Shown in pieces: positions 39,109-55,428 of a stretch of 64,000 bases of DNA. The notes under the pieces were generated by a model. It did no database searches. It was not told the DNA's origin and saw nothing but the letters and a program-made list of their open reading frames with translations. This stretch comes from Psychroflexus sp. ALD_RP9. GTDB taxonomy: Bacteria > Bacteroidota > Bacteroidia > Flavobacteriales > Flavobacteriaceae. Made by a program: the position numbers and the translations under genes. How positions within the stretch are numbered: the stretch's first letter is position 1; the number at the start of each line of letters is the position of its first letter. The stretch spans positions 1,550,001 to 1,614,000 of the forward strand of contig NZ_CP062973.1 in NCBI RefSeq assembly GCF_017311165.1, read 5' to 3'.

Positions 39109-39183
39109 CGGGGTGTAGCGTAGCCCGGTCATCGCGCCTGCTTTGGGAGCAGGAGGTCGCAGGTTCGAATCCTGCCACCCCGA
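39109..39183 (+). tRNA. tRNA-Pro(UGG)
   Basis: 75 nt. The acceptor stem CGGGGTG pairs with CACCCCG, the anticodon loop TTTGGGA gives TGG at 39144-39146, and the T arm GCAGG TTCGAAT CCTGC is complete. CCA is not encoded. It is 55 bp after tRNA-Ser, probably in the same transcript. An integrase gene lies 280 bp downstream, so the 3' end of this tRNA is the likely integration site of the element that follows. Confidence 0.96.
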
Positions 39184-39221
39184 CTTTTCAATTTAGTAAA
39201 TACTACTAAATAATAACTAAT

Positions 39222-39305: not shown

Positions 39306-39406
39306 ATTCGGTTACCTATTCGGTTACCTCTTTTTTTTGTAAATACAGTAAAATCAGTATATTTGAGCCATAATCATTAAATATGGTAGACTTTCCTCGG
39401 TTACCT
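39306..39406 (+). repeat. CGGTTACCT repeats upstream of the integrase gene
   Basis: ATTCGGTTACCT occurs twice in perfect tandem (39306-39317, 39318-39329), and CGGTTACCT occurs a third time at 39398-39406, 77 bp from the second. They lie between tRNA-Pro and the integrase gene, where arm-type binding sites of the recombinase or operator sites would be expected. Confidence 0.65.
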
Positions 39407-39462
39407 ATTTCATAACACAATTACTTGTATTGAGATTTTCGATTAACCACAAATCGAAAATT

Positions 39463-40683
39463 ATGAAACCAAATCTTGTTATTTTAGTATGGGCAAACAA
39501 GTCCAAAAGAAACAGCCGTAATCAAATTCCGCTTTATTTAAGACTTACTGTGTCAGGTAAAAGAGCAGAGATAAGCTTAAACGAAAAGGTAGATATTAAA
39601 CTTTGGGATGCCAAATTTCAAAAAGTAAAAGGGAGCTCTAATGAGGCAAGATCCATTAATCATACCATAGATACAGCCAAAGCAAAAATCAATGCATTGT
39701 GTGATGAAGCTCAAAGAGCTGGTGAATTTATTACACCTACTTTGATAAAAAATAAATTTTTAGGAAAAGATATCAAATATGAAACGCTTTCTCAGCTTGT
39801 CGATTATCACCAAACAAAAATGAAGAATTTTCTAAAGCCAGGCACTCTAAAAAATTATTTTACCACAAAAAAATACCTTGATAAGTTTGTTGAAACTAAC
39901 CTCAAAACAACGGATGTTTTCATAAGGCAAGTTAATTACAAGTTTATAATCGACTTTGAAGATTTCTTGCGAAAGCAGAATGGACTTCAAAATAATGGTG
40001 TCATGAAACACCTAGAACGCCTAAAAAAATTAATGAATTTAGCTGAGGACCTTGAATGGATTAAAAAGAATCCTGTTAAACGTTATAAGCTTAGGTTTGA
40101 TGAGGTTGATACAGGCTATCTATCGCAAAGCGACTTAAATAAGGTAATTCAAGCTGAATTTGAGAGCCAAACACTTAATGTGGTGAGAGATGTTTTTGTA
40201 TTTGCTTGCTATACTGGTTTAGCTTATTCAGATTTGAAGAAGCTTTCAAAAGAAGAAATTACAATCGGTATCGACGGCCAAAAGTGGATACACACCAGAC
40301 GCCAAAAAACCAACGCAGTTGTAAGAATTCCTCTGTTAGATATACCTTTACAAATAATTAAAGACTTTGAAAATCACCCTAGAGTTAAAGATTCTGATAA
40401 TTTGTTACCAGTATTCTCAAACCAGAAAATGAATAAATATTTAAAAGACATAGCTAAAAAGTTAGGCATTAAGCAACGTTTAAGTTCACATATTGCAAGA
40501 CACACTTTTGCGACAACTGTTACGCTTGCTAATGGTGTTCCAATTGAAAGTGTATCTAAGCTTTTAGGTCATAGAAAGCTATCAACAACACAAATTTATG
40601 CCCGCATAATTGATACTAAATTGTCTGAAGACCTAAGGGGTATCAGTCAATCTTCTAAACTGAAAAATAGGAATATTTCGTAA
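39463..40683 (+). CDS. Tyrosine recombinase (integrase), CTnDOT type
   Basis: 406 aa from the ATG at 39463; the frame opens at a TTG at 39430, but a hairpin (39435-39461) and the position favour the ATG. An N-terminal arm-binding domain, a SAM-like core-binding domain (FEDFLRKQNGLQNNGVMKHL) and a catalytic domain are present. HIARHTFATT gives the HxxR pair and TTQIYARI the nucleophilic Tyr. Box I reads YTGLAYSDL, so the first catalytic Arg is replaced, as in IntDOT and many Bacteroidota integrases. It is the integrase of the element next to tRNA-Pro. Confidence 0.93.
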   Translation: MKPNLVILVWANKSKRNSRNQIPLYLRLTVSGKRAEISLNEKVDIKLWDAKFQKVKGSSNEARSINHTIDTAKAKINALCDEAQRAGEFITPTLIKNKFLGKDIKYETLSQLVDYHQTKMKNFLKPGTLKNYFTTKKYLDKFVETNLKTTDVFIRQVNYKFIIDFEDFLRKQNGLQNNGVMKHLERLKKLMNLAEDLEWIKKNPVKRYKLRFDEVDTGYLSQSDLNKVIQAEFESQTLNVVRDVFVFACYTGLAYSDLKKLSKEEITIGIDGQKWIHTRRQKTNAVVRIPLLDIPLQIIKDFENHPRVKDSDNLLPVFSNQKMNKYLKDIAKKLGIKQRLSSHIARHTFATTVTLANGVPIESVSKLLGHRKLSTTQIYARIIDTKLSEDLRGISQSSKLKNRNIS

Positions 40684-40723: not shown

Positions 40724-40731
40724 TATATTTG
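40724..40731 (+). promoter_or_regulatory. -7 element of rteC-like gene
   Basis: TATATTTG, an exact match to TAnnTTTG, 30 nt upstream of the ATG at 40762. Confidence 0.5.
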
Positions 40732-40761
40732 TTAGTCTGTATAACTAACATCTACCTATTT

Positions 40762-41574
40762 ATGAAATATAAATCAGTGATGGATAACTTTTATGCAGAG
40801 TTATCTAAAGTTGAGTCTCGTAATGAAGATATAATAAGACGATCTGAAACTATAATTGAAATCTCTAAGCAACACCTTTATCGCTTAAAATCTTTATACT
40901 ATTCTGATACTGATAAATCTAAAGACTTACAGATTAGATTTTTTAAGGAACTCAAACCAGTAATTGCCAAAACTATTTTTTACTATACAAAAATCAGATG
41001 TTTAGAATTTAGTTTAAATGAGGTTTCAATAGATAAAGCAGATAAAATTATCACCAAATCCTTCAAGAAAATTGATAAGTTTTTGGATAAACATATGGAG
41101 TTTATTTACAATTTAAAGCATAACGAAGAGAAAGCAACATTTACGTATTTTACAACTAAGCAAGAATTAGCTTCTCCAGTAAAATTATTTAAGGAAAATC
41201 CATACCATGATATAAGCGATTGCTATTACAGTGATATTTATGCGGAGTATCAAGCCTACATAGAATTTAAATCTTATCTTGATAACAGAAACAAAAAGAA
41301 AACGCTTCAACATATTGATCTTAATCGTTTGTGGAGAAAACAAGCTTGGACGGCTACTTCAACTGATTTTATTGAACTTGTTTATGCACTATACCATTCT
41401 AATTCAATTAATAATGGGCAAGTCACTATTAAAGAAATAGTTCAGAGTTTAGAAGCTGCCTTTGAGGTGAAGCTACCTAAAGATTATTACAAAACTATAG
41501 ATGACATAAAGCAACGTAAAGAAGTTGCCAAGTTTATTAATCGTTTAGAGTTTTCATTAATTAATAACACATAA
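40762..41574 (+). CDS. RteC-like regulator of element excision
   Basis: 270 aa from the ATG at 40762 (a TTG 33 bp earlier would overlap the promoter element). The N-terminal helical region (IRFFKELKPVIAKTIFYYTKIR with CLEF) and the C-terminal winged-helix-like segment (RKQAWTATSTDFIELVYALY, QSLEAAFEVKLPKDYYKTID) match the RteC family. In the conjugative transposon CTnDOT, RteC switches on the excision genes. Here it sits between the integrase and an excisionase-like gene, consistent with that role, but the target in this element is not known. Confidence 0.87.
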   Translation: MKYKSVMDNFYAELSKVESRNEDIIRRSETIIEISKQHLYRLKSLYYSDTDKSKDLQIRFFKELKPVIAKTIFYYTKIRCLEFSLNEVSIDKADKIITKSFKKIDKFLDKHMEFIYNLKHNEEKATFTYFTTKQELASPVKLFKENPYHDISDCYYSDIYAEYQAYIEFKSYLDNRNKKKTLQHIDLNRLWRKQAWTATSTDFIELVYALYHSNSINNGQVTIKEIVQSLEAAFEVKLPKDYYKTIDDIKQRKEVAKFINRLEFSLINNT

Positions 41575-41968: not shown

Positions 41969-42622
41969 ATGAACTACATCGAACACCTTAACCAGGCGTT
42001 CCATCAAATTTATCAAGACAACCGCTTAAGGCCTACACATATTGCATTGTACATGGCCCTATTTCAATTCGCTAATGCCAGCCGATTTAAAACCGAATTT
42101 CAAGCGGCTAGGGCAGAGCTCATGCAATATTCAAAAATTGGCTCAACCAAGACTTATTACAAATGCCTTGATGAATTACAACGGTGGAACTACATCGGTT
42201 ATCAGCCCTCCAAAAATGTTTACCAAAGCAGCAAATTTAGCATAAGTAAATTTTACATATCAGGTAAACAAGCGGTAAACAAGCAGGAAACAAGTGGTAA
42301 ACAAGCACTACCACCATATATAAATATATACAAACTATATAAAGATTATAAATACTATAAACAGCTGAAGCCAAATTTTAAAAATGAAATTATACTGTTT
42401 TTTAAAAATGAAAACACACCAGATCAATTCGATTTTAAAACTGAAGCTGAAAAATTCATCAGCTTTTATGAGAACTTAAATTGGTGCATAGGCCAACAAG
42501 CTGTAAACGACTGGAGACCACTGGCCAAAAAATGGCTACAATCGGCTGAAGCTTTTAGTAAGAAACCAAAAGATCAAAACCATCAACTTAACACCCACAA
42601 AAGTTATGACGAACCGCTCTAA
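41969..42622 (+). CDS. Replication initiator-like protein with internal iterons
   Basis: 217 aa. The N-terminal winged-helix region (RPTHIALYMALFQFANASRF, then LDELQRWNYIGYQPS) resembles the DNA-binding domain of plasmid, phage and ICE initiators. The C-terminal ~60 residues (KFISFYENLNWCIGQQAVND, then WRPLAKKWL) resemble the DnaD-like domain found in phage and ICE replication proteins. The linker GKQAVNKQETSGKQA is encoded by four tandem 11-bp repeats, followed by a Tyr/Lys-rich stretch from AT-rich DNA. The following gene, a helicase loader, overlaps by 17 bp. The pair matches the initiator/loader logic of lambda O and P. The function is inferred from domains and context. Confidence 0.78.
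   Translation: MNYIEHLNQAFHQIYQDNRLRPTHIALYMALFQFANASRFKTEFQAARAELMQYSKIGSTKTYYKCLDELQRWNYIGYQPSKNVYQSSKFSISKFYISGKQAVNKQETSGKQALPPYINIYKLYKDYKYYKQLKPNFKNEIILFFKNENTPDQFDFKTEAEKFISFYENLNWCIGQQAVNDWRPLAKKWLQSAEAFSKKPKDQNHQLNTHKSYDEPL
42263..42360 (+). repeat. Iteron array and AT-rich tract, candidate replication origin
   Basis: Four head-to-tail 11-bp units begin at 42263, 42274, 42285 and 42296. Three are perfect GGTAAACAAGC and the third is AGGAAACAAGT. Directly after them comes a ~50-bp stretch that is almost all A and T (42315-42360). Iterons followed by an AT-rich unwinding region inside an initiator gene is the classic arrangement of lambda-type origins. Confidence 0.7.
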
Positions 42623-43301
42623 ACTTCAACAGGTACTCAAGAAAACAGCCAACGGTAAAACCTTCAACCTTGCCGAAAATAAACAGCAACATTGGTACTA
42701 CGATTTCAAAACAACACTCAATTTTCTTCAAGCAAAAGGCCAAGAACGATTCGGTCATCAGTTTAAAATTGAAGCAACCGACCATGAACTGATTTATAAG
42801 CTGTGCATCCTTATGATTCAAGATGAAGTTAATGCTCAAAAAAACGGACTCCAACTGAATAAAGGCATCTTGCTATCAGGACCAGTTGGTGTCGGTAAAA
42901 CCTCACTGATGCAGCTCATCCCTGAAATCTGTTATCAACCACCATTATATCAATTGGTGCCAACGCGCGAAATTATATTCGCTTATAATGAACACGGCAG
43001 CAAGATCATCACCCAATATGGTAGTCATAACACCTATTGTTTTGACGATTTAGGTTTAGAACCTACAGGCCGATTTTATGGTAAAGACGCAAATGTCATG
43101 GCTGAGGTTATGCTTAGCCGTTATGAGTACTATCGCAAGTGCTATCGACAAAAATATTTCTTTAAACGAAAAGTCGCACATTTTACCACCAACCTCAACG
43201 CCAGTGAAATAGAAAAGCGCTACGGAAAGCGAGTAAGGTCTAAACTTCGCGAAATGCTAAACCTCATCGCTTTTAATGCTGAAACTAAAGATAAACGTTA
43301 A
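42606..43301 (+). CDS. DnaC/IstB-like AAA+ helicase loader
   Basis: 231 aa. Walker A GILLSGPVGVGKTSLM (about 80-95), Walker B TYCFDDLGLE, sensor 1 AHFTTNLNASEIEKRYG and an Arg finger region RVRSKLREML are in the order of DnaC-type ATPases. Predicted to load the host DnaB helicase at the element's origin. It overlaps the initiator gene by 17 bp. Confidence 0.86.
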   Translation: MTNRSKLQQVLKKTANGKTFNLAENKQQHWYYDFKTTLNFLQAKGQERFGHQFKIEATDHELIYKLCILMIQDEVNAQKNGLQLNKGILLSGPVGVGKTSLMQLIPEICYQPPLYQLVPTREIIFAYNEHGSKIITQYGSHNTYCFDDLGLEPTGRFYGKDANVMAEVMLSRYEYYRKCYRQKYFFKRKVAHFTTNLNASEIEKRYGKRVRSKLREMLNLIAFNAETKDKR

Positions 43302-44899: not shown

Positions 44900-46126
44900 A
44901 TGAGTGTTAAGAAAACATATATTGACCTGTTTGCTGGTTGTGGTGGTCTTTCACTCGGTCTTTATAATTCTGGCTTATGGAAAGGACTATTTGCTATTGA
45001 AAAAAGTCCAGATGCGTTTGAAACATTTAGTCACAATCTAATTAAGAACAACAACCATTTCAATTGGCCTGATTGGTTGCCGAAATCACATCACGATATC
45101 AATGAAATTATTAAAAACTATAGTAGCGAATTAACATTATTAAGAGGGAAAATTGATTTGGTAGCTGGTGGACCTCCTTGCCAAGGTTTTTCAACTGCTG
45201 GGAAAAGAATGGAAAATGACTCAAGAAACAAATTAATCAAATCTTACATAAAGTTTATTCGTCATGTACAACCAAAAGTTATCTTTTTTGAAAATGTAAA
45301 AGGTTTTACTCAAAAATTTGATAAAAATAAAATTCAAGGAAAAGTATATTCAGAATATGTAAAAAATGCATTAGAATATACTCCAAAAGGCGAAAAATAT
45401 TTAGGGTATAAAGTAGAAGGTCGTCTTATTGATTTTTCGGAATATGGTGTTCCGCAAAAAAGAACTCGTTTCATTTTAGTAGGTATTAGAAAAGATATTG
45501 CCAAAAGAACAAAACCGATAGATTTTTTTGATTTAATAAGAAAAGAACGAGAAAAATTCCTTGTTAGTAAAGGTATTGGTCTAACAAATAGTTTGGAAGA
45601 TGCTATATCAGACTTATTAAGAATTAATGAAACAGCATCTCCAGACACGCCATCATTTAAGACTGGGTTCTATAACAAAATTAAATCTGAATATCAAAAA
45701 CTTTTAAAAGGAGATTACGCAAAAAAAATTCCTGACAGTCATAGATTTGCAAAGCACAATGCGTCTACCGTTGAAAAATTTGAATATATTCTTAAAAACG
45801 GAGCTAGAAACAAATCGCTATCAGACGAAATAAAAGAAAAATTTAATCTTAAAAAAAGAACTATAATTCCATTATCTGGAACTACTCCTACTCCAACAAT
45901 TACTACTTTACCAGATGATTATGTGCACTATTGTGAACCTAGAATTTTAACAGTTCGAGAATATGCAAGAATCCAGTCATTTAACGATTGGTATGAATTT
46001 AAAGGTAAATACACAACTGGTGGAAAAAGAAGGACACAAGAAGTGCCTCGTTATTCACAAATTGGCAATGCAATCCCACCTTTATTCGGTGAACAAGCTG
46101 GAATTACAATAAACAACTTGATTTAA
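44900..46126 (+). CDS. DNA (cytosine-5) methyltransferase
   Basis: 408 aa. Motif I DLFAGCGGLSLGL, motif II AIEKSPDAFETFSHN, catalytic motif IV GGPPCQGFSTAGKR with the active Cys, motif VI FFENVKGF, motif VIII QKRTRFILVG, a target-recognition region (about 230-340), motif IX REYARIQSFNDWYEF and motif X QIGNAIPPLFGE. All catalytic parts are present, so the enzyme should be active. Its recognition site is unknown. No restriction endonuclease gene is next to it. The GHKL ATPase gene starts 2 bp after its stop, so methylation and signalling appear to be one unit. Confidence 0.94.
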   Translation: MSVKKTYIDLFAGCGGLSLGLYNSGLWKGLFAIEKSPDAFETFSHNLIKNNNHFNWPDWLPKSHHDINEIIKNYSSELTLLRGKIDLVAGGPPCQGFSTAGKRMENDSRNKLIKSYIKFIRHVQPKVIFFENVKGFTQKFDKNKIQGKVYSEYVKNALEYTPKGEKYLGYKVEGRLIDFSEYGVPQKRTRFILVGIRKDIAKRTKPIDFFDLIRKEREKFLVSKGIGLTNSLEDAISDLLRINETASPDTPSFKTGFYNKIKSEYQKLLKGDYAKKIPDSHRFAKHNASTVEKFEYILKNGARNKSLSDEIKEKFNLKKRTIIPLSGTTPTPTITTLPDDYVHYCEPRILTVREYARIQSFNDWYEFKGKYTTGGKRRTQEVPRYSQIGNAIPPLFGEQAGITINNLI

Positions 46127-46128
46127 TT

Positions 46129-48504
46129 ATGCAGAAACCACTACAATTTAAAATAAGTTCTGCATTAAAAAATATAATTGGCAGAGACTTAATTACAGAT
46201 GATTTTATTGCAGTTTTTGAGTTAGTTAAAAACGCATATGATGCCCACGCAACAAGAGTTGATGTTATTTTCGAAGATATTTATTCTGACAATGGAAAAA
46301 TAATTATCAAGGATAATGGCAAAGGCATGAGCTATCAAGATTTACTTGCTAAGTGGCTTTTTGTAGCTCGTTCATCAAAAAAAGAAGGAGACGAGGAAGA
46401 TAGTTATAAAAATTACAGAGATAAAATTAAAGTTAAGAGAGCTTACGCAGGAGCTAAAGGCATTGGTAGATTTTCTTGTGACAGATTAGGTAGTGAACTA
46501 TATCTTGAAACTATAAAAGATGAAAAAAACGCAAAAGTAGAAGCTTTAATAACCGATTGGAACAAATTTGAAGAAGACAGTAATAATGAATTTGTAAATG
46601 TAAGCGTCTTACACGAGACGTTAAAAAAGAGTTCATATGGTATTGAAAACGGAACAGTCCTTGAAATTTCCAATCTTAATAGTTATTGGGATAGGAAGAA
46701 GTTTGAAAGACTCAAAGATTCATTAACAAGACTAATAAACCCCTCAACTATTCAAGATGAAGATTCATTTAAAATTTTTCTCTCTGTTGAAGAAGAACGA
46801 GAAGGTGACCTAAAACAAAAAAAGAAAAATAATAAACTTGTTGAGAAAGGTAACTTGGATAAATCTGAGGTAGACTATTTTGATATAATTAATGGTGAAA
46901 TCAAAAATCCAATTTTTGAGACCTTGCAATTGAAAACTAGCTATATAGAGTCAAATGTTCAGAAAGATAAAATTGTCACTACATTATATGAAGCAGGTCA
47001 ACTAGTTTATAAAATAATAGAAAAAAATCCTTTTAAAGATTTAATAAATATTCACTATTCAATTTATTTCTTAAACCATTCAGCCAAGTTAACTTTTGCA
47101 AGAAGGATGGGTGTAGATTCAGTTGAATATGGTCATATTTTTGTCTATAAAAACGGTCTAAGAATTTATCCCTATGGCGAAAGATGGGAAGACCCTTTTA
47201 AAATGGATAATAGAAAGGCTCAAGGATATAGCAGGTATTTAGGCACTAGAGAGGTTTTAGGCTACATTTCTATTAATGGTGAGAATAATAACCTTAGAGA
47301 AACTTCAAGTCGTGGAGATGGTTTTATAAGAACTAAATCTTATGAAAATTTGGAAACTCAATTCTATGAAACACTAAAAAAATTAGAAAAATATACTATT
47401 GAAATTACAGATTGGGGGAATTTCTTATCTGAGAATGATTACATTAATATTAATGAATCTTTTATTAAAAATAAAGGAAAAGAAAATGAAAGGGAATTTA
47501 ATGTTAATGATAATTTAAGTAAACTAATTTCAAACTTATCAAATTCAAAATCTGTTGTTAGTTTTGAAATTGCTCCAAATATTTTAAGCCTCTTAGAATC
47601 AAAAAGCGAAGGTTCTGCGGAAGGAATATTAAAAAACATTTCAGATTCTTTAAATGACAATAATTTTGATAAAAATGAAGTCAAAAAAACCATCAAAAGT
47701 GTAGAGAAAAAACTCTCTGATTTAAAGAAAAGCAAAGAAGAAGCAGAGGAAGAAGCGCTTGAAAAACATATTGAGAATGAAGGTCTCAAAGCTGAACTAG
47801 ATTCTGAAATTGCAAATCGGTTGTTTAGTGATTCTGTTATAGGAAGAGAGAAGAAAGACCTTTTAAGTCTTCAACATCAAATAACTCATACAGCAAATAA
47901 TATTTCCTGGTCGCTAGATAAACTTACCGAGCTTATTGAGAATGAAGAATCAAAGGATAAACTTTTAAATCGTGTTCAGAATATTAGTTTAGAGGTACAA
48001 AAAATAGTTAGTTCTTCAAGATTTGTCACCAAAGCTAATTTTAGCACTGAAGCTAGTCGAATTACCGAAGACATTGTTAGCTTTATCAATCACTATATCG
48101 AAAAAATATATGTCCCAAATGATTCCTATATACATTCAAGAAATCAAATCGAAATAAATATAAAAACTCCTAAAAACCTTAAAAAAGTAATGAGTTTTAG
48201 GCCACTTGAAATTACAGTTCTACTTGACAACTTATTTGTAAACTCAAGAAAGGCAGATGCAACTAAAATTGATTTGACTTGGATTAAAACTAAAGATAAT
48301 CTATTGTTAAATTTTAAGGATAATGGTAACGGTATACCTGATGAAATTTTAAGTAAAATTTTTAACTTTAAATTCAGCACAACTGATGGTTCCGGTATAG
48401 GGTTATATCACACGAAAAAAATACTAAAGAAATATAATGGAAATATTATTGCCTCAGAAAATATTTCTGAAGGTGCTGAATTTCAAATAACATTACCAAT
48501 ATGA
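46129..48504 (+). CDS. Soluble dual-GHKL ATPase/histidine-kinase-like protein
   Basis: 791 aa, no membrane helices. The N-terminal GHKL ATPase resembles MORC/Hsp90/MutL: N-box FELVKNAYDAHATRVDV (about 30-45), G1 DNGKGMS (about 62) and G2 GAKGIGRFS (about 108). A central domain (about 200-440) and a long Lys/Glu coiled coil (about 500-575) follow. Then comes a histidine-kinase dimerisation-like helix with HQITHTANNISWSLDKL (about 583) and a second GHKL domain with LLDNLFVNSRKADA (N-box), DNGNGIPDE and GSGIGLYHTKKIL at the C-terminus. Predicted role: a cytosolic sensor that uses ATP-driven clamp closing and passes a phosphate to the next gene's receiver domain. It overlaps that gene by 4 bp (ATGA). 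The ligand is unknown. Confidence 0.87.
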   Translation: MQKPLQFKISSALKNIIGRDLITDDFIAVFELVKNAYDAHATRVDVIFEDIYSDNGKIIIKDNGKGMSYQDLLAKWLFVARSSKKEGDEEDSYKNYRDKIKVKRAYAGAKGIGRFSCDRLGSELYLETIKDEKNAKVEALITDWNKFEEDSNNEFVNVSVLHETLKKSSYGIENGTVLEISNLNSYWDRKKFERLKDSLTRLINPSTIQDEDSFKIFLSVEEEREGDLKQKKKNNKLVEKGNLDKSEVDYFDIINGEIKNPIFETLQLKTSYIESNVQKDKIVTTLYEAGQLVYKIIEKNPFKDLINIHYSIYFLNHSAKLTFARRMGVDSVEYGHIFVYKNGLRIYPYGERWEDPFKMDNRKAQGYSRYLGTREVLGYISINGENNNLRETSSRGDGFIRTKSYENLETQFYETLKKLEKYTIEITDWGNFLSENDYININESFIKNKGKENEREFNVNDNLSKLISNLSNSKSVVSFEIAPNILSLLESKSEGSAEGILKNISDSLNDNNFDKNEVKKTIKSVEKKLSDLKKSKEEAEEEALEKHIENEGLKAELDSEIANRLFSDSVIGREKKDLLSLQHQITHTANNISWSLDKLTELIENEESKDKLLNRVQNISLEVQKIVSSSRFVTKANFSTEASRITEDIVSFINHYIEKIYVPNDSYIHSRNQIEINIKTPKNLKKVMSFRPLEITVLLDNLFVNSRKADATKIDLTWIKTKDNLLLNFKDNGNGIPDEILSKIFNFKFSTTDGSGIGLYHTKKILKKYNGNIIASENISEGAEFQITLPI

Positions 48505-49409
48505 AAATAGATTACAAAGTTATATGGATTGAAGATAAATTTGAAGAAGAAGAGAATCCGTTCACAGACATTAAAAATTATTTGGTTGATTATTTAAAAT
48601 CGGAACATTATTTCAAAGTAGATATCAAAACATTTGAAAATGTTGAAAATTTCAAAAAAGCTGTATTAAAAGATGATTATGATTTAATAATTACTGATTA
48701 CCATTTAAATGATGGTAAATTAGGTAGTGAAGTAATAGACTTCATAAGAAGAGAAAACAATATTGCTACTGAAATATTTTTCTATTCTGCAAAACAAGGT
48801 TTAGATGTCAATAATAAGTTAATCAATAATAATAGAGTTACTTTTTATCCTTTATCAGGCAATAGTTATAGAGATTTGCGAAGTGAAATAAAAAACTTAA
48901 TTGATTTGACATTACGAAAATTCAATCATATTGTGACAATGAGAGGTATGATTATGCACGAAACAAGTAATTTAGATGAAAAATCTCTTGAGATTGTAAA
49001 AAACTATTTTGAAGAAAAAAGTGATGAGGATATTATAAATGCATTATTTGATGAAATAATATCCTTCCATAAAGAGAAATTAGGTAAAGCAGAAAAGTAT
49101 AAGAAAAATTCCAGATTAGAAAAAATTATTGGAGATCCAGTAGCTTTTTCAGCAACTCAAAGAGCAAATACTTTATCTAATATTATTGATAAAGAAGGTC
49201 TAATAAATTTTATTGCGGATTATAAAAAAGAAATTCTTCTAGTTAGAAATCAATTTGCTCATGCAATATTAGATGAGGAAAAACAGGTTTTTAGAACAAA
49301 AGGAGGAAAAGAATTTAATCAAGAGCTTTGTAAAAAAATTAGAAAAGACATTAGTATTCACATTGATAACATTAATAAATTAAGGTCACAATTAAAATCC
49401 AACGCATAA
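48501..49409 (+). CDS. Receiver-domain protein with HEPN-like C-terminal domain
   Basis: 302 aa. The N-terminal ~130 residues form a response-regulator receiver domain: acidic residues in VIWIEDKFEEEE, phospho-acceptor Asp66 in LIITDYHLNDG, and Ser96/Lys98 in FFYSAKQG. The C-terminal all-helical region (about 135-300) has two RX4H motifs, R148-H153 in MRGMIMHE and R249-N250-H254 in LLVRNQFAHA. The second matches the HEPN RNase signature R-N-x3-H. No DNA-binding motif is seen. Predicted role: a phosphorylation-controlled effector, possibly an RNase, driven by the upstream kinase-like protein. HEPN assignment is by motif and helical pattern only. Confidence 0.83.
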   Translation: MKIDYKVIWIEDKFEEEENPFTDIKNYLVDYLKSEHYFKVDIKTFENVENFKKAVLKDDYDLIITDYHLNDGKLGSEVIDFIRRENNIATEIFFYSAKQGLDVNNKLINNNRVTFYPLSGNSYRDLRSEIKNLIDLTLRKFNHIVTMRGMIMHETSNLDEKSLEIVKNYFEEKSDEDIINALFDEIISFHKEKLGKAEKYKKNSRLEKIIGDPVAFSATQRANTLSNIIDKEGLINFIADYKKEILLVRNQFAHAILDEEKQVFRTKGGKEFNQELCKKIRKDISIHIDNINKLRSQLKSNA

Positions 49410-49713: not shown

Positions 49714-50151
49714 ATGGTTAAAAAATATTTGTCTAAACATTCAACAGTTTTTTTGAAAAAAAAACTTCCTGCCTATAACCTTCAGGAAATCCTGATCGTT
49801 TTAGCTATTATTGGCATATTGTTATTAATAGCTCTACCTAACTTAATGCCATTAATAAGCAAAGCCAAAAGTGTAGAAGCCCAAACCCAATTAAAGTACC
49901 TTTACAATGCACAAACTACGCATCGCTATATGTATTCTAAATATGCAATGGAGTTAGAAGCTTTAGATTTTGAGGCGCCGAGAACAGTAGAGGAAAATGG
50001 GAATGCAAACTACAGCTATGAAATTCTAAAAGTTGATAACAATAGCTTCAAAGCAAGAGCAACGGCCGTAACAGATTTTGATGGAGATGGGGTTTTTAAT
50101 GTTTGGGTAATCGATGAAAATGGAATTCCAAAACAAGAGGTTAAAGACTAA
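49714..50151 (+). CDS. Major prepilin/pseudopilin (GspG/PilE-like)
   Basis: 145 aa. A positively charged leader (MVKKYLSKHSTVFLKKK) ends at LPA, followed by the type IV prepilin helix YNLQEILIVLAIIGILLL with Glu at +5. The cleavage residue is Ala instead of the usual Gly. A beta-rich C-terminal domain follows (TDFDGDGVFNVWVIDENG), with a calcium-site-like Asp pattern (DFDGDG). It opens an operon encoding prepilin peptidase, GspE, GspD and GspF, so it is the likely major subunit of the pilus or pseudopilus. Confidence 0.9.
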   Translation: MVKKYLSKHSTVFLKKKLPAYNLQEILIVLAIIGILLLIALPNLMPLISKAKSVEAQTQLKYLYNAQTTHRYMYSKYAMELEALDFEAPRTVEENGNANYSYEILKVDNNSFKARATAVTDFDGDGVFNVWVIDENGIPKQEVKD

Positions 50152-50156
50152 CCTAA

Positions 50157-50633
50157 ATGTGGTGGCTAAAAATCATTTCAGCTGTTGTACTATTTGCTAT
50201 TGTTTATCAAGACCTCAAATATAGGGCAGTTAGTTGGTTTTGGTTTCCAATTTTAGCTATTGGTTTAGGCACTTTACACTACTTAAATTCACTTTTTGAA
50301 GTATTTGTTTTACATTCACTAATCAATTTAGGCTTTGTACTTTTAATACTCATTCTGCTTTATGCTTATATAAGTTTTAGAGGTAAATATAAGTTTTCAA
50401 AAGCTATGGGTAGTGGTGATGTAGTCATGTTTATAGCTTTAAGCCCCGCTATGGCAAGTATAACTTTTATCGTATGTTTTATTTTTTCTATTTTACTAGC
50501 CATGATATTGTCTTTGGTATTTAATAAAAAAGATAAAAAGAATATTCCCTTAGCAGGTTATATGGCGGTGTTTTTTACATTTATATATCTTGCATATTGG
50601 AATGGTTTTTTGACTCAATTATATACAATTTAA
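50157..50633 (+). CDS. Prepilin peptidase (A24 family, short form)
   Basis: 158 aa with about six membrane helices. The two catalytic aspartates of A24 peptidases are seen in YQDLKYRAV and in GSGDVVMF (the GxGD motif). The N-terminal cytoplasmic methyltransferase domain with its zinc cysteines is absent, so it probably cleaves without methylating. It should process the prepilin encoded 5 bp upstream and the two minor ones downstream. Confidence 0.9.
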   Translation: MWWLKIISAVVLFAIVYQDLKYRAVSWFWFPILAIGLGTLHYLNSLFEVFVLHSLINLGFVLLILILLYAYISFRGKYKFSKAMGSGDVVMFIALSPAMASITFIVCFIFSILLAMILSLVFNKKDKKNIPLAGYMAVFFTFIYLAYWNGFLTQLYTI

Positions 50634-50640
50634 ACTTACA

Positions 50641-52038
50641 ATGGCACAACTTCAGATACAAACACATCTCAAACAACTGGTTTCAGACGAACAGGCGTAT
50701 TTGTATCGTATTATTCCGGTTGCATATGATCAAGACTCTATAAGTTTTCTGACTGATAAGGTTACAACTGATAAAACTAGAGAGCTTCAAATTCTATTCG
50801 ATAAAACCGTATTTCTGGAAGAAGAATCAGCTTCAAAGATAGATGAATTACTTTCCTTTAATTTTAGAAAAAAACAACAGTCTTCTCAGTTTAATTATTC
50901 AGAAGATTTTATTCTAAATTTGCTTTACAATGCTAAATCTGTTTCTGGGAGTGATATTCACTTAGAGCCTTATGAGGATAATGCAAGAATACGTTTTAGA
51001 ATTGATGGTAAACTAATTGAACAACATATTGTTCGTTTAGAAGATTACCCTGTTTTGGTCAATAAAATTAAAATCAAAGCCAATTTAGATATTTCTGAAA
51101 AACGTTTGCCTCAAGATGGGCGCATTAGTATTAATGCGAAGGGAGAAGAGTTTGATATCCGCGTGTCTAGCCTACCGACACTTTACGGAGAAAAGATCGT
51201 TATGCGGATTCTTAATAAAGATGCAAATGCTCTTGATATCCAAGATTTAGGAATGACAAAAAAGGAGTTGCGAGAATACCAAGAGCAAGTCCAAAAACCA
51301 AATGGGATTATTTTAATTTCTGGTCCAACAGGATCTGGTAAAACCACAACGCTTTACGCTACTTTAAAACAGCTTAACACCAACGAAACGAATATTCTTA
51401 CCATTGAAGATCCTATCGAATATACACTGAAAGGCATCAACCAGGTTCAACTTAAGGAAAGCATAGGCTTAGATTTTCCTAATACTTTAAAAACATTCTT
51501 ACGGCAAGACCCCGATATTATAATGATAGGAGAGATCAGAGATGCCAAAACGGCCAATATGGCTGTTAGAGCGGCTCTCACGGGACATTTGGTGTTGTCA
51601 ACAATTCATACAAATTCAGCCTGGGCAACCATCAACAGACTGATAGATATGGGTATCCCGTCTTACTTACTAGCAAGTACATTAAATATGTCTTTAGCCC
51701 AGCGTTTACTGAGAACACTTTGCCCGCATTGTAAAACTAAAAACCCAGCTGATCCAAATGATTTTCCTGAGCATTATAAAATACCAAAAGACTTACAAAC
51801 TTATTACAAGCCGGTAGGTTGTCCGGAGTGTTATTATACAGGATATTCGGGCAGGAAAGCCATTTATGAAATTATTCCGATAATTAAAACACTCAAAGAA
51901 AAAATAAAAAATAATGATTTAGAGATTGAAGATCATTGCATTGAACATAATATTACTAATTTGCGACAAAACGCACTTCAACTTTTAAAGGAAGGGCAGA
52001 CCTCTGCTAAAGAAGTCTATCCATTTTTATTAGATTAA
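50641..52038 (+). CDS. Secretion/pilus assembly ATPase (GspE/PilB)
   Basis: 465 aa hexameric ATPase. N2-type domain with SGSDIHLEPYEDNARIRFRI, Walker A GPTGSGKTTTLYATL (about 228), Asp box, Walker B RQDPDIIMIGEIRD, His box LTGHLVLSTIHTN, and the C-terminal zinc site CPHC (about 361) with CPEC (about 395). The N1 domain is short compared with PilB. It powers subunit assembly through the GspF platform. No retraction ATPase (PilT) gene is present, which favours a secretion or non-retracting system. Confidence 0.95.
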   Translation: MAQLQIQTHLKQLVSDEQAYLYRIIPVAYDQDSISFLTDKVTTDKTRELQILFDKTVFLEEESASKIDELLSFNFRKKQQSSQFNYSEDFILNLLYNAKSVSGSDIHLEPYEDNARIRFRIDGKLIEQHIVRLEDYPVLVNKIKIKANLDISEKRLPQDGRISINAKGEEFDIRVSSLPTLYGEKIVMRILNKDANALDIQDLGMTKKELREYQEQVQKPNGIILISGPTGSGKTTTLYATLKQLNTNETNILTIEDPIEYTLKGINQVQLKESIGLDFPNTLKTFLRQDPDIIMIGEIRDAKTANMAVRAALTGHLVLSTIHTNSAWATINRLIDMGIPSYLLASTLNMSLAQRLLRTLCPHCKTKNPADPNDFPEHYKIPKDLQTYYKPVGCPECYYTGYSGRKAIYEIIPIIKTLKEKIKNNDLEIEDHCIEHNITNLRQNALQLLKEGQTSAKEVYPFLLD

Positions 52039-52044
52039 AGAGAT

Positions 52045-54240
52045 ATGAAAATAAAATTGAATCGATTAGATTTTAAAATTATAGCCATTATCTTGGTTTT
52101 TCTGCTTTTTCAGAATACCTATGCTCAAGACAATTCAAGATTAGATAGTTTGCGAGTAAAACTGACTGAGCTTGCTAAATCTAACGAAGGCTTAAGCGAA
52201 AAGTTTGAAACTGAACTCAACATTAGTAATGTGACTTTACAAACGCTTCTAATGGGTGTTGCAGAAATCCATAACATCAATATTAATGTTGATAGAAGTG
52301 TAACTAATATTTCTGTGACCAATAATTTTCAGGATGTAAATATCATTGATTTATTGGTTTTTCTTTGTAAAGAGTTCAAGTTAACAATAGATTTTACAGG
52401 TAACATTTTATCCTTTAAAGCTTATAATCCACCAGAGGTGATTCAAAAAGATCCATTTGAAGTGAAATATGAAGCAAATGATCGGGTGTCTTTAGATATT
52501 CGAAACCAAAAACTTTTTGAAGTCGTCAAAAAGATTTCTGCTGAAACTGGAAAAAACCTAGTGTATAAACCTGGCCTAGAAAACACGTCTATTAATGTTT
52601 ATACTAATAATGCAAGATTTGAAAGTGCTATGAAGCAATTGGCTATTTCTAATGGCTTAAGTATTGAATATTCAGAAGATAATTTTATAATCTTGACGAA
52701 GCAAACGGAAGAATCTAACTTCAGTTTTAATATTGATGCAAGGTCTAAAATTGGTTATGAGGTCATAGATAAGCAAGATAAATTACTTAAGGTCAATTTT
52801 AAAAACACACCAATCAAAGACATTATAAATGCTTTATCCTTAGATTTAAATTTAAATGTGTTCACAGCATCACCGCTTGATGAAGCTGGACAGATAACCT
52901 TTGTGGCTAAAGAGATTTCATTTGATGAACTGATTAAGAAAATGTTTGAAAGTAATTCAAGTCAGTTAAAAACATCACAACAAAATAATCAAAACAATAA
53001 TCAAAATTTTTCAAGTAATACTAGAGCCCAATTGTCCAACAAGACTACAAATTTTACCTTCAAAAAAGAAAAAGGCATTTATTATTTTGGAACAGAATCT
53101 CAACTCAGCTTAAGAAAAGTTGAACTCATTCAGTTAAAACACCGTTCTGTAGAGCTCTTGTCTGATCCTTCAGGTGGTATGACTTCCAGAAGAAGTGGCG
53201 GTGGTAGAAACCTGAATATAGGTTCTAATGCCGCTTTTAATTCGTTCAACAGCTCATTTAACTCTAGAGGCCTTAATAATGGGCTAAATCGCCAAAATAA
53301 TAATCAAAGCAACTTCCAACAACCTAATAATAGCAATTTAAGTCAATCTCAAAGTTCTAATATTTTAGAACTTATCCCAGAAAACCTCACGCAAGACCTA
53401 AAAATTAAAGTTGATGTTGAACAAAACAGCCTTTACGTTAGTGGCTCAAGCCAAAAGATTAATCGATTAAGAGATTTTTTAGAGGGTATAGATAAAGCAG
53501 TACCTGTTGTATTAATTGAAGTAATGATCATTGAAGTAAGTCGTAGTTCAGTTGTAGAAACGGGTATAAGTTGGGGAATCGGAGAGGAACCAGCTTCAAC
53601 TCAGGGCGGTCTCTATCCTCAAACAGATATCACACTTGGGGCTAACACGATTAATCGAGTCATTGGTGGTTTTGATGGTTTTGGCTCTTTTAATTTAGGC
53701 CAAGTCGTACCTAACTTTTTTGCCACTATTAAAGCCATGGAGGCTAATGGCAACTTAAAAATACGCTCAACGCCTAAGCTTTCCACATTAAGTGGTCACA
53801 GGGCCACATTCTCGAATGGCCAAACCTCTTATTATACTGTTACACAGCAAAATATTGTATCAGGAAATAATCCAGTAACCAATACCATTACTAATTTTGT
53901 GCCGATTGATGCAGAATTAGGCCTTACTGTTAAACCCTTAGTGTCTGGTGATGGTCAAGTCACACTCGATATTTTCGTAATTCAATCTAATTTTGGCCAG
54001 CGTATTGAAGAAAATGCACCGCCTGATATCAATTCCAGAGAATTCAGTTCTCTAATTCGGGTACGGAACGGTGATATTGTGGTTTTAGGTGGCTTAGAGG
54101 AGCAAACCAAGGATGATTCAGGCTCAGGCGTACCTTTGCTCGCGAGAATACCTGTGATTAAATGGTTGTTTAGTCAACGAAGACGAGAAGATTCAAAATC
54201 TAAATTAACCATTCTGATTAAACCAACTGTAATCAACTAA
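52045..54240 (+). CDS. Secretin (GspD/PilQ-like)
   Basis: 731 aa. A signal peptide (IIAIILVFLLFQNTYAQ) is followed by STN/N-type domains (LQTLLMGVAEIHNINI; IKDIINALSLDLNLNVF), an Asn/Gln/Ser-rich insert (about 310-330 and 395-440), and the C-terminal secretin barrel with VPVVLIEVMIIEVSRS, RSTPKLSTLSGHRATF, and IRVRNGDIVVLGGLEEQ ending in VPLLARIPVIKWLFS. It forms the outer-membrane gate. No separate pilotin gene was recognised unless one of the operon's lipoproteins serves. Confidence 0.95.
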   Translation: MKIKLNRLDFKIIAIILVFLLFQNTYAQDNSRLDSLRVKLTELAKSNEGLSEKFETELNISNVTLQTLLMGVAEIHNININVDRSVTNISVTNNFQDVNIIDLLVFLCKEFKLTIDFTGNILSFKAYNPPEVIQKDPFEVKYEANDRVSLDIRNQKLFEVVKKISAETGKNLVYKPGLENTSINVYTNNARFESAMKQLAISNGLSIEYSEDNFIILTKQTEESNFSFNIDARSKIGYEVIDKQDKLLKVNFKNTPIKDIINALSLDLNLNVFTASPLDEAGQITFVAKEISFDELIKKMFESNSSQLKTSQQNNQNNNQNFSSNTRAQLSNKTTNFTFKKEKGIYYFGTESQLSLRKVELIQLKHRSVELLSDPSGGMTSRRSGGGRNLNIGSNAAFNSFNSSFNSRGLNNGLNRQNNNQSNFQQPNNSNLSQSQSSNILELIPENLTQDLKIKVDVEQNSLYVSGSSQKINRLRDFLEGIDKAVPVVLIEVMIIEVSRSSVVETGISWGIGEEPASTQGGLYPQTDITLGANTINRVIGGFDGFGSFNLGQVVPNFFATIKAMEANGNLKIRSTPKLSTLSGHRATFSNGQTSYYTVTQQNIVSGNNPVTNTITNFVPIDAELGLTVKPLVSGDGQVTLDIFVIQSNFGQRIEENAPPDINSREFSSLIRVRNGDIVVLGGLEEQTKDDSGSGVPLLARIPVIKWLFSQRRREDSKSKLTILIKPTVIN

Positions 54241-54243
54241 CTT

Positions 54244-55428
54244 ATGTTAGAAGCTTTACATACCAAATTATACGGACAACTATTTTATGGGGTTGAAGTT
54301 ACTAGTTTTATAGATGACGATTTAGTTTTTCAAATGACGGCACTGAAAGCTATTAAAGGAGAACTCAATATAGTGGGTTTCTCAGATCAAATTAAGTTTG
54401 AAAAAAATAATAAAAAGAAGGTTAAGGCTAATTTAGTTGTTAATACTGTACAAGTGCTGAACCGAGTTTCAACACGACTTGCTGGTAATATAGAACATAG
54501 TATAGATCAATTATTTCCTAATTTAGATATAAGTCAGTTTTATTATCAAAGCTATAACTATGAAGGACAACAATTCATTAGCATTTGTCGAAAAAAACAT
54601 ATCGATGGAATCGTTGCGGCCTTAAAAAAAATGAATATTAATGTTGATAACATCTGCCTTGGAAACACAGTCGTGAGTGTTCTAAAAGAATTTTCATCAA
54701 TAGAATCTCTTACAACATCAAATGCAAGAATAAATTTAAAGAATGTATTAGAGATAGAAAAAAGAGATAACATTAAAACAAAACTCTACTCGATAGAAGG
54801 TATTGATATTAATAATTTTTACATGCTTTCTTTCCTTGCTGCAGCCAATCAAAGTTTATCTCTTTTTGATACGGAAAATAATTTAGACCACCTCCTAAAA
54901 TTTTCTCATGAAGAGCATAAGCAATATTTGATTTTTTATTATGGTTTGCGTTCATCTGTGATTACTATTTTAATGATTCTAATGGTAAATTTTTACTATT
55001 TCAACTCTTACTACGATGATGTGAGCAACAATCCAAATGTTGAAAATGAAAGTTTAAAAAAAACATATGCTAGTTTAAAAGCCGAAGTCAATCAAAAGGA
55101 TAAACTCATCAATCAGATTTTACAAAACCAAAGTTCGTCAACATCTCAAATTATAAATGATCTCATTAAAACATTACCAGCAACCATTCAGCTTTCTGCA
55201 ATTGCTTTTCAACCTTTAAGTAAAAGCATTAAGAAGGGAAAACCCATAGAACTTGCCTCTGGTAAAGTCGTTATAAAAGGAGAAACAAATGTAAACGGCA
55301 GCTTTACCACGTGGAATACAAGCTTAGAAAACTTAGATTGGGTAAACAATGTCACTATAACCAAGTTTCAAGCTGTTGAGAAGTCTGGCAACCATCAATT
55401 TGAACTAAAAATTCAGATGAATCAATGA
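54244..55428 (+). CDS. GspL/PilM-PilN-like inner-membrane assembly protein
   Basis: 394 aa. The N-terminal ~225 residues are cytoplasmic and by position and pattern could be a diverged actin-like PilM/GspL domain. One membrane helix (VITILMILMVNFYYFNSYY, about 238-257) is followed by a coiled coil and a small PilN-like periplasmic domain (LPATIQLSAIAFQPLSK, GKVVIKGETNVNGSF). It should link the ATPase to the periplasmic ring. It is 3 bp after the secretin gene and overlaps the next gene by 4 bp. The family assignment rests on layout and operon position. Confidence 0.72.
   Translation: MLEALHTKLYGQLFYGVEVTSFIDDDLVFQMTALKAIKGELNIVGFSDQIKFEKNNKKKVKANLVVNTVQVLNRVSTRLAGNIEHSIDQLFPNLDISQFYYQSYNYEGQQFISICRKKHIDGIVAALKKMNINVDNICLGNTVVSVLKEFSSIESLTTSNARINLKNVLEIEKRDNIKTKLYSIEGIDINNFYMLSFLAAANQSLSLFDTENNLDHLLKFSHEEHKQYLIFYYGLRSSVITILMILMVNFYYFNSYYDDVSNNPNVENESLKKTYASLKAEVNQKDKLINQILQNQSSSTSQIINDLIKTLPATIQLSAIAFQPLSKSIKKGKPIELASGKVVIKGETNVNGSFTTWNTSLENLDWVNNVTITKFQAVEKSGNHQFELKIQMNQ

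Follow-up and report, generated by a model that had tools for sequence, protein, structure and literature searches.

A C5 cytosine DNA methyltransferase (MTase) encoded next to a kinase-like protein and a receiver protein, with no restriction enzyme among them, raises the question of what such a set of genes does. The set considered here lies in a window of 64,000 nucleotides of the Psychroflexus sp. ALD_RP9 genome (contig NZ_CP062973.1, positions 1,550,001 to 1,614,000; coordinates below are those of the window unless prefixed). It consists of three open reading frames (ORFs) on the plus strand, from 44900 to 49409, encoding the C5 MTase, a kinase-like protein with two GHKL domains, and a protein that joins a receiver to a HEPN-like domain (Table 1). 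The MTase and kinase ORFs are 2 bp apart, and the kinase and receiver ORFs overlap by 4 bp. This arrangement had been proposed in an earlier reading of the DNA letters (the sequence-only reading), and its positions and spacings were recovered exactly. The trio is a genuine, widely conserved operon, and it may act as a defense module in which missing methylation is signaled to a putative RNase.

Conservation and distribution of the operon

Genomes were scanned with a protein 3 alignment, which yielded 67 loci; the partner genes were identified by ORF calling and phmmer. All three genes, for which the sequence-only reading had suggested looking in other genomes, were found in 59 of the 67, in addition to the window's own copy and one contig from a viral collection (L071), indicating conservation far beyond chance. 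Both gaps were no larger than 60 bp in 56 of the 59 trios (the exceptions being L020, L052, and L068), and in the eight loci lacking one or more of the genes the kinase or receiver ORF began no farther than ∼760 bp from a contig end. One locus (L061) owes its place among the trios to a tblastn match, with its receiver entered by hand, and in three of the 59 trios the MTase ORF was short (L007 and L031 lie at contig ends, and the MTase of L013 is in two ORFs). Pairwise distances of the three proteins were correlated across 55 loci (rho values of 0.66, 0.54, and 0.57; 0/999 permutations each), with broken or missing loci dropped and undefined distances set to 80.

Judged by record title, the hosts were mostly Bacteroidota, with Campylobacterota, Gammaproteobacteria, Verrucomicrobia-related organisms, and two Methanimicrococcus archaeal metagenome-assembled genomes also represented; many of the host records are metagenome-assembled genomes, so that an isolated unusual host could reflect a binning error. 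In a receiver-HEPN profile search of 296 Bacteroidota genomes, in which at most the best seven candidates per genome were scored and loci could be missed, full-length matches were detected in the window's genome and two others. Three further genomes had partial, more distant matches, and the remaining matches were short and limited to the receiver, indicating that within the Bacteroidota the receiver-HEPN form is rare and patchy. Plasmid and phage collections yielded no relatives, and L071 was the one relative among 13 pattern matches in viral contigs.

The methyltransferase and the kinase-like protein

The MTase contains the motifs FAGCGG, PPCQGFS, ENVKGF, QKRTRF, and GNAIPP in the correct order. 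It scored 153.4 bits with the NCBIfam dcm model TIGR00675 (cut-off, 100.65) and was assigned by PADLOC to the type II or DruM/DrmMII-like MTases (MTase_II, 2e-81). These matches agree with the intact C5 enzyme that had been read from the sequence. A type II restriction-modification (R-M) system requires an MTase and a restriction endonuclease, of which the operon supplies the MTase half only: no restriction enzyme was found among its three proteins in Pfam, PADLOC, and NCBIfam scans. PADLOC gave weak matches to the other two proteins (best values of 5.8e-4 for the kinase and 0.022 for the receiver protein), the latter being a REase_II match that was regarded as noise.

The target-recognition region of the MTase, which we take from the general layout of such enzymes to lie between the motifs at about residues 205 to 340, was compared between two closely related systems (L045 and L048). 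Identity was 79% for the kinase, 65% for the catalytic half of the MTase, and 34% for its target region. The region that differs most is the one expected to do so if specificity diversifies, although this is suggestive only. In another locus (L039), a kinase scoring 460 bits stands alongside an MTase scoring 164 bits, which suggests that the MTase has been swapped.

Two GHKL domains were found in the second protein, as claimed in the earlier reading: HATPase_c_3 at residues 27 to 158 (3.1e-24) and HATPase_c at residues 695 to 790 (4.1e-23). An H-box-like His583, present in 66/66 members, precedes the HATPase_c core, as is expected of a two-component kinase. The N-terminal residues E31, N35, D62, G64, G66, G108, K110, G111, and G113 and the C-terminal residues H583, N705, G756, and G758 were each conserved in 62/62 kinases, a set that omits the cut kinases of L009, L012, L043, and L049.

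The receiver and its output domain

Counts for the third protein refer to 66 members, a set that omits two loci with short or broken receiver ORFs (L020 and L068) and one with no exact ORF at the entered coordinates (L061) and adds L026, L041, L046, L071, and the window's own copy. The Pfam Response_reg match of the window protein (1.7e-5) was below the curated cut-off; the receiver fold has an acidic pocket and a putative phospho-acceptor, Asp66, which is present in 66/66 members.

In the C-terminal domain, R249, A253, and H254 were each found in 66/66 members and N250 in 64/66, so that R249 and H254 supply the conserved R-x4-6-H motif of HEPN domains; an N-x-x-A spacing between the Arg and the His is typical of such motifs. 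The pattern RNx[FLMY]AH was present in all 120 database proteins listed, the window's own among them. As R249, A253, and H254 remained invariant in distant members in which domain identity to the window was just 17 to 30%, the pattern resembles a catalytic one. The sequence-only reading had named two HEPN-like RX4H strings, and both exist, but only R249NQFAH254 is conserved as such. The first (residues 148 to 153) was rejected: R148 and G149 are present in 66/66 members, but position 153 is His in 18/66.

When the 66 members were compared with Pfam (E ≤ 1), the three most common matches to the C-terminal domain were HEPN families, namely, HEPN_MAE_28990 (13/66), RiboL-PSP (11/66), and Swt1 (9/66), with a best E value of 2.1e-6; the next most common family was ApoB100_C, with 7 members. 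One protein (L053) matched HEPN_RiboL-PSP at 6.9e-6 over profile positions 41 to 188 of 191. Among 10 diverse members scanned singly, four (L045, L053, L065, and L066) had a HEPN-named match at E ≤ 0.5, and a fifth (L067) matched Abi_2 (0.0099), a HEPN relative according to a passage in PMC3710099. The domain modeled alone was helical, with a predicted local distance difference test score (pLDDT) of 90.8. In a fold search with the whole receiver-HEPN model (VIA-align), the best 50 matches listed were all to the receiver part, and the four rows returned by a PDB sequence profile search (best E, 0.028) were regarded as chance. In hhalign comparisons, the RNxxAH motifs were aligned with those of 120 MAE_28990-type proteins (P of 0.012 versus 0.27 for the reversed profile; score of 22.8 versus a maximum of 20.6 over 30 shuffles), while P was 0.13 (reversed, 0.91) with seven RiboL-PSP proteins, one of which (L131) is probably in the wrong frame.

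Several observations weigh against a chain leading from methylation to RNA cleavage or are neutral to it. The Lys that usually stands at the end of β5 in receivers was found in 0/66 members at columns 113 to 116. The window's own C-terminal domain matched no HEPN profile in Pfam, the HEPN scores of its relatives were below the curated cut-offs where bits were seen, and five of the 10 diverse members had neither a HEPN-named nor an Abi_2 match. Nothing in the PDB matched the C-terminal domain model at E ≤ 0.001; HEPN chains were absent as well, and their absence from this search is not evidence against HEPN. When the kinases' own helical region served as an unrelated control in the hhalign test with the MAE_28990-type proteins, the value was 0.0054; the profile comparison was no better than this control, and therefore no HEPN support was drawn from it. 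The argument from target divergence is weakened by the general variability of MTase target regions, and the correlation of protein distances, which is expected for one unit, could result from shared host descent alone. From the invariant motif, the helical model, and the Pfam matches, it is nevertheless quite probable, although not proven, that the C-terminal domain is a HEPN domain.

Relation to described systems

The sequence-only reading had recognized no described system of this composition, a claim that has to be withdrawn. Bellieny-Rabelo et al. (2021; PMC8011034) reported two protein families, found together in 91.6% of 644 regions and often with a C5 MTase upstream, as a possible two-component system tied to R-M, and suggested that it controls R-M. 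Their module comprises a C5 MTase, a soluble HATPase_c_3/HEF_HK/HATPase_c protein, and a response-regulator-like protein, in an R-M-like neighborhood that also has HNH_2 and Vsr genes. The window shares the upstream C5 MTase, adjoining a single protein with HATPase_c_3 and HATPase_c, and the receiver-like partner. However, PF19191 (HEF_HK) was absent from the window kinase at E ≤ 10, while the same library detected it in L123 (8.8e-29) and L119 (7.1e-20), and PF19192 (Response_reg_2) was absent from the window receiver at E ≤ 10, with no match in the window's own genome. The receiver-like proteins of the published module have 525 to 575 residues, compared with 302 and a HEPN-like tail in the window, and "HEPN" occurs 0 times in the text of PMC8011034.

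In the seven PF19192 loci above the cut-off in the 296 Bacteroidota genomes, the MTase came first, followed by a large kinase-like ORF and then by the PF19192 protein, with the kinase verified by Pfam in L119 and L123. Their MTases matched that of the window at 40 to 63 bits; their kinases matched at 65 to 76 bits in three of the seven loci and not at all at 1e-5 in the other four. Judged from its domains, the window operon is a new variant of the architecture published in 2021, with another output domain and both defining domains absent.

Neighboring genes were counted within 1.5 kb of 66 loci by using query genes that Pfam identifies as HNH_2, Vsr, and Metallophos. A strong HNH match was present at 6 loci, and Vsr and a calcineurin-like phosphoesterase were each present at 5, with a further phosphoesterase in L026 at a contig end. 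The statement in the earlier reading that there is no restriction enzyme thus applies to the window operon but not universally. The HNH_2 family gene lies beside the trios of L005, L012, L016, L029, L052, and L070, and a gene of the same family (441 bits) adjoins the PF19192 locus L119, indicating that this nuclease can be recruited by either system. The Metallophos gene overlaps or abuts the receiver-HEPN gene in L034, L043, L053, L054, L062, and L026, which are mostly Campylobacterota by record title.

None of the operon proteins matched Detocs in PADLOC 2.0.0, a library whose Detocs content was unchecked. Detocs likewise uses a histidine kinase and a receiver-effector in defense, but its sensor and effector differ and it is not known to include an MTase. 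The passages seen of three papers describe further likenesses. The paraMORC GHKL ATPases (Iyer et al., 2008; PMC2292703) have an N-terminal GHKL ATPase beside cytosine MTases, sometimes with Vsr, whereas the window operon adds a further GHKL domain, a kinase core, and has a receiver protein as partner; neither "receiver" nor "response regulator" is used in that paper (0 occurrences each). In the paraMORC-HEPN(Ymh) fusions (Anantharaman et al., 2013; PMC3710099), a GHKL ATPase is likewise coupled to HEPN beside R-M genes, but the HEPN domain is fused to the ATPase itself, while in the window the HEPN-like domain is on the separate receiver protein. CapK is a GHKL kinase activated by single-stranded DNA (ssDNA), and CapK/CapS-like proteins control a VapC RNase (PMC13373217), so that there, too, a GHKL kinase that senses the state of DNA governs immune expression or an RNase through phosphorylation; the phosphorylation is on Ser of a STAS protein, with no MTase or His-Asp transfer noted in the passages seen. 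No MTase-GHKL-receiver-HEPN trio appears in the passages seen of PMC12137116, PMC8195603, PMC7159879, and PMC12839542. Among the literature matches listed, chiefly non-subscription, neither such a system nor a mechanism for the 2021 sister system was recognized.

Loci detected through the kinase

When protein 2 was used to search the 296 genomes (E ≤ 1e-20; no more than three candidates per genome were scored, and loci could be missed), at least 21 loci in 19 genomes were obtained, among them a remnant with an MTase-like ORF nearby (G182) and a locus reaching a contig end (G099). A DNA MTase was present beside the kinase in 19/19 assessable loci. It was a C5 enzyme matching the trio MTases in 17 (with Pfam confirming the assignment in L200 and L201), an N6/N4 enzyme in G023, and an N6 enzyme in G148. 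In G023 (L206) and G148 (L204) these MTases replace the C5 enzyme; the N6 MTase of G148, which is Eco57I-like, is located past the receiver-like gene and one more gene; and in G167 and G207 the MTase is downstream on the opposite strand. The sequence-only reading would have been undermined by kinase and receiver homologues occurring mostly without an MTase and outside mobile elements; the opposite was seen for the MTase, and for mobile elements the evidence covers the window's own copy alone.

An ORF with a receiver-like start followed the kinase in 18/18 loci where the contig permits. The RN-x-x-A-H motif was present in 6 of these 18 third proteins. The other 12 were judged receiver-like by eye from a hydrophobic-DD start (D-E in L196); when 7 of them were scanned with Pfam, one matched Response_reg (3.5e-5) and six had no match. 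As an MTase accompanies every assessable kinase while the tails of the third proteins differ, the MTase-kinase core appears to be broad and the output protein to change. A C-D stretch, in many cases P-x-C-D, together with a terminal R-x-G was recognized by eye in the third proteins of L198, L199, L201 to L203, and L205, and again in the PF19192 proteins of L072 and L076, possibly representing an unnamed output domain. Another output arrangement is found at L196:7639-9049 and L197:8980-10354, where a short third protein (231 to 238 residues) is followed by a second small protein (221 to 240 residues), with no convincing Pfam match for any of them.

The surrounding island

The operon is carried on an integrative island of ∼82 kb at tRNA-Pro, in line with its earlier description as cargo of an integrative element. 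Together with the integrase and RteC-like genes (Table 1), the evidence includes a 17-bp repeat, CTGCCACCCCGACTTTT, at the 3′ end of the tRNA gene (39172), of which a second copy lies at G000:1671011, G000 being the genome of the window; a 16-mer at 39314 recurs at G000:1670934. In a relative (G306), the match to the window, at 94%, ends at 39211, and similarity to G000 resumes from 1671055, at 96% and 91%. Thus, ∼82 kb, with the operon inside, is absent from this position in G306; the comparison covers this site alone.

Table 1. Positions of the operon, its domains, and the features of the island start
Feature	Position	Strand	Evidence or remark
C5 cytosine DNA methyltransferase	44900..46126	+	408 aa; Pfam DNA_methylase 5.6e-55
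Dual-GHKL kinase-like protein	46129..48504	+	791 aa; HATPase_c_3 and HATPase_c (Pfam)
Receiver-HEPN-like protein	48501..49409	+	302 aa
Receiver domain (about residues 1-119), putative phospho-acceptor Asp66	48501..48857	+	Response_reg match
C-terminal helical HEPN-like domain (about residues 120-302), R249-N-x-x-A-H254	48858..49409	+	Motif conservation, weak Pfam HEPN matches, model
tRNA-Pro, 3′ end the likely island attachment site	39109..39184	+	ARAGORN; synteny with relatives stops at 39184-39211
Tyrosine integrase of island	39430..40683	+	Pfam Phage_integrase 2.4e-18, Arm-DNA-bind_5 1.5e-11
RteC-like regulator of island	40729..41574	+	Pfam RteC 9.7e-32

Genes for a type I MTase and specificity subunit lie near the far end of the island (G000:1657105-1666522, L172), along with an AbiEii-like gene and candidate defense genes of the PDC-S05 and PDC-S11 types; of six genes scanned there, one had no match. 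Eight other window genes gave two weak PADLOC matches, at 42606 to 43301 (best, 3.1e-4) and at 54244 to 55428 (REase_II, 2.8e-6, with part of the profile covered), and six had none. At other loci, 5 of 10 hand-picked neighbors in nine loci matched PADLOC at 1e-5 (two in L045 and one each in L061, L048, and L044); these were picked for a possible defense look or for closeness and serve as illustration only. Directly downstream of the operon, at 49714 to 54240, the island carries a pilin-like gene and genes for a type IV leader peptidase, a T2SSE ATPase, and a secretin. The pilin-like gene (ComP_DUS, 3.7e-4, under the cut-off) was matched in 4/27 genomes of the genus, including the window's own. 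Elsewhere in the island (L173, G000:1614003-1628790), the first 60 residues shown are identical between two large ORFs.

Proposed function and alternatives

For the trio we infer a defense role, RNase activity, and methylation sensing. The C5 MTase, presumably active given its intact motifs, would mark host DNA at its own sequence, and the MutL/MORC-like N-terminal ATPase of the kinase would monitor the state of DNA, with foreign DNA that is unmarked or replicating as its most likely target. The C-terminal ATPase would then phosphorylate the kinase's own His583, from which the phosphate would move to Asp66 of the receiver, a transfer suggested by the invariance of both residues. The receiver would free the fused HEPN domain to cut RNA via R249 and H254, halting growth of the infected cell. 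The output domain may be swappable, as relatives have other receiver-like proteins with the same MTase-kinase core. Whether the trio is such a chromosomal-island defense module, with self-marking by the MTase, GHKL sensing, phosphotransfer, and a HEPN RNase, is a question on which we are evenly divided.

The same arm could benefit the island instead of protecting against phage. In such an addiction module the MTase would be the antitoxin, and the kinase, receiver, and HEPN domain would kill cells that lose the island and with it methylation, a role compatible with defense. An island with an integrase and an att-like repeat is a suitable setting, and the MTase is never absent from assessable loci. 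Addiction alone is unlikely, as it leaves unexplained both the divergence of target recognition between close systems and the other defense genes of the island.

It is quite unlikely that the kinase senses DNA damage or ssDNA in the manner of CapK and not methylation, the MTase either shielding the host from a co-acting nuclease or being a passenger. The CapK precedent (PMC13373217, from the passages seen), the different MTase of L039, and the N6/N4 or N6 type at two kinase loci would fit, but some DNA MTase at every assessable kinase locus is more than a passenger should show.

The trio could also be a two-component system regulating R-M gene activity, as was proposed for HEF_HK/Response_reg_2 in PMC8011034, with the C-terminal domain as a noncatalytic dimerization or binding module. 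HNH or Vsr genes near some trios are consistent with it, as are HEPN fold searches without a PDB match and a profile comparison no better than the control. The catalytic pattern retained at low identity argues in the other direction, and the scarcity of strong HNH matches means that there is usually no recognized nuclease to control; we regard this explanation as improbable for the window operon. It is very improbable that the trio is what remains of a type II R-M system, either with the GHKL protein as its former restriction subunit or after the loss of an HNH enzyme: the N-terminal GHKL domain weakly resembles the BbrUII/HgiDII restriction enzyme in NCBIfam (73.2 bits; cut-off, 550) and an HNH gene adjoins some copies, but the C-terminal half of the GHKL protein forms a kinase-like core in which the His and the N- and G-box residues are invariant, and the form without HNH is the commoner (60/66 have no strong match within 1.5 kb).

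Taken more widely, and held with slightly less than even confidence, the self-marking defense reading would make the trio part of a largely undescribed superfamily that combines a DNA MTase (C5, N6/N4, or N6), a double-GHKL reader of missing marks that is part MutL-like and part kinase, and several interchangeable receiver-fused effectors set off by a His-Asp phosphate, the one in this trio being a HEPN RNase. If this is true, restriction would have been converted so that a phosphorelay drives RNA cleavage and growth arrest in place of DNA cutting, joining DNA methylation, His-Asp signaling, and RNA cleavage within three genes, and an orphan-looking MTase would pay its way without a restriction enzyme. 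The invariant RNase-like motif provides a concrete, testable output for the architecture described in 2021, and the conservation of H583, D66, R249, and H254 makes every proposed step directly testable.
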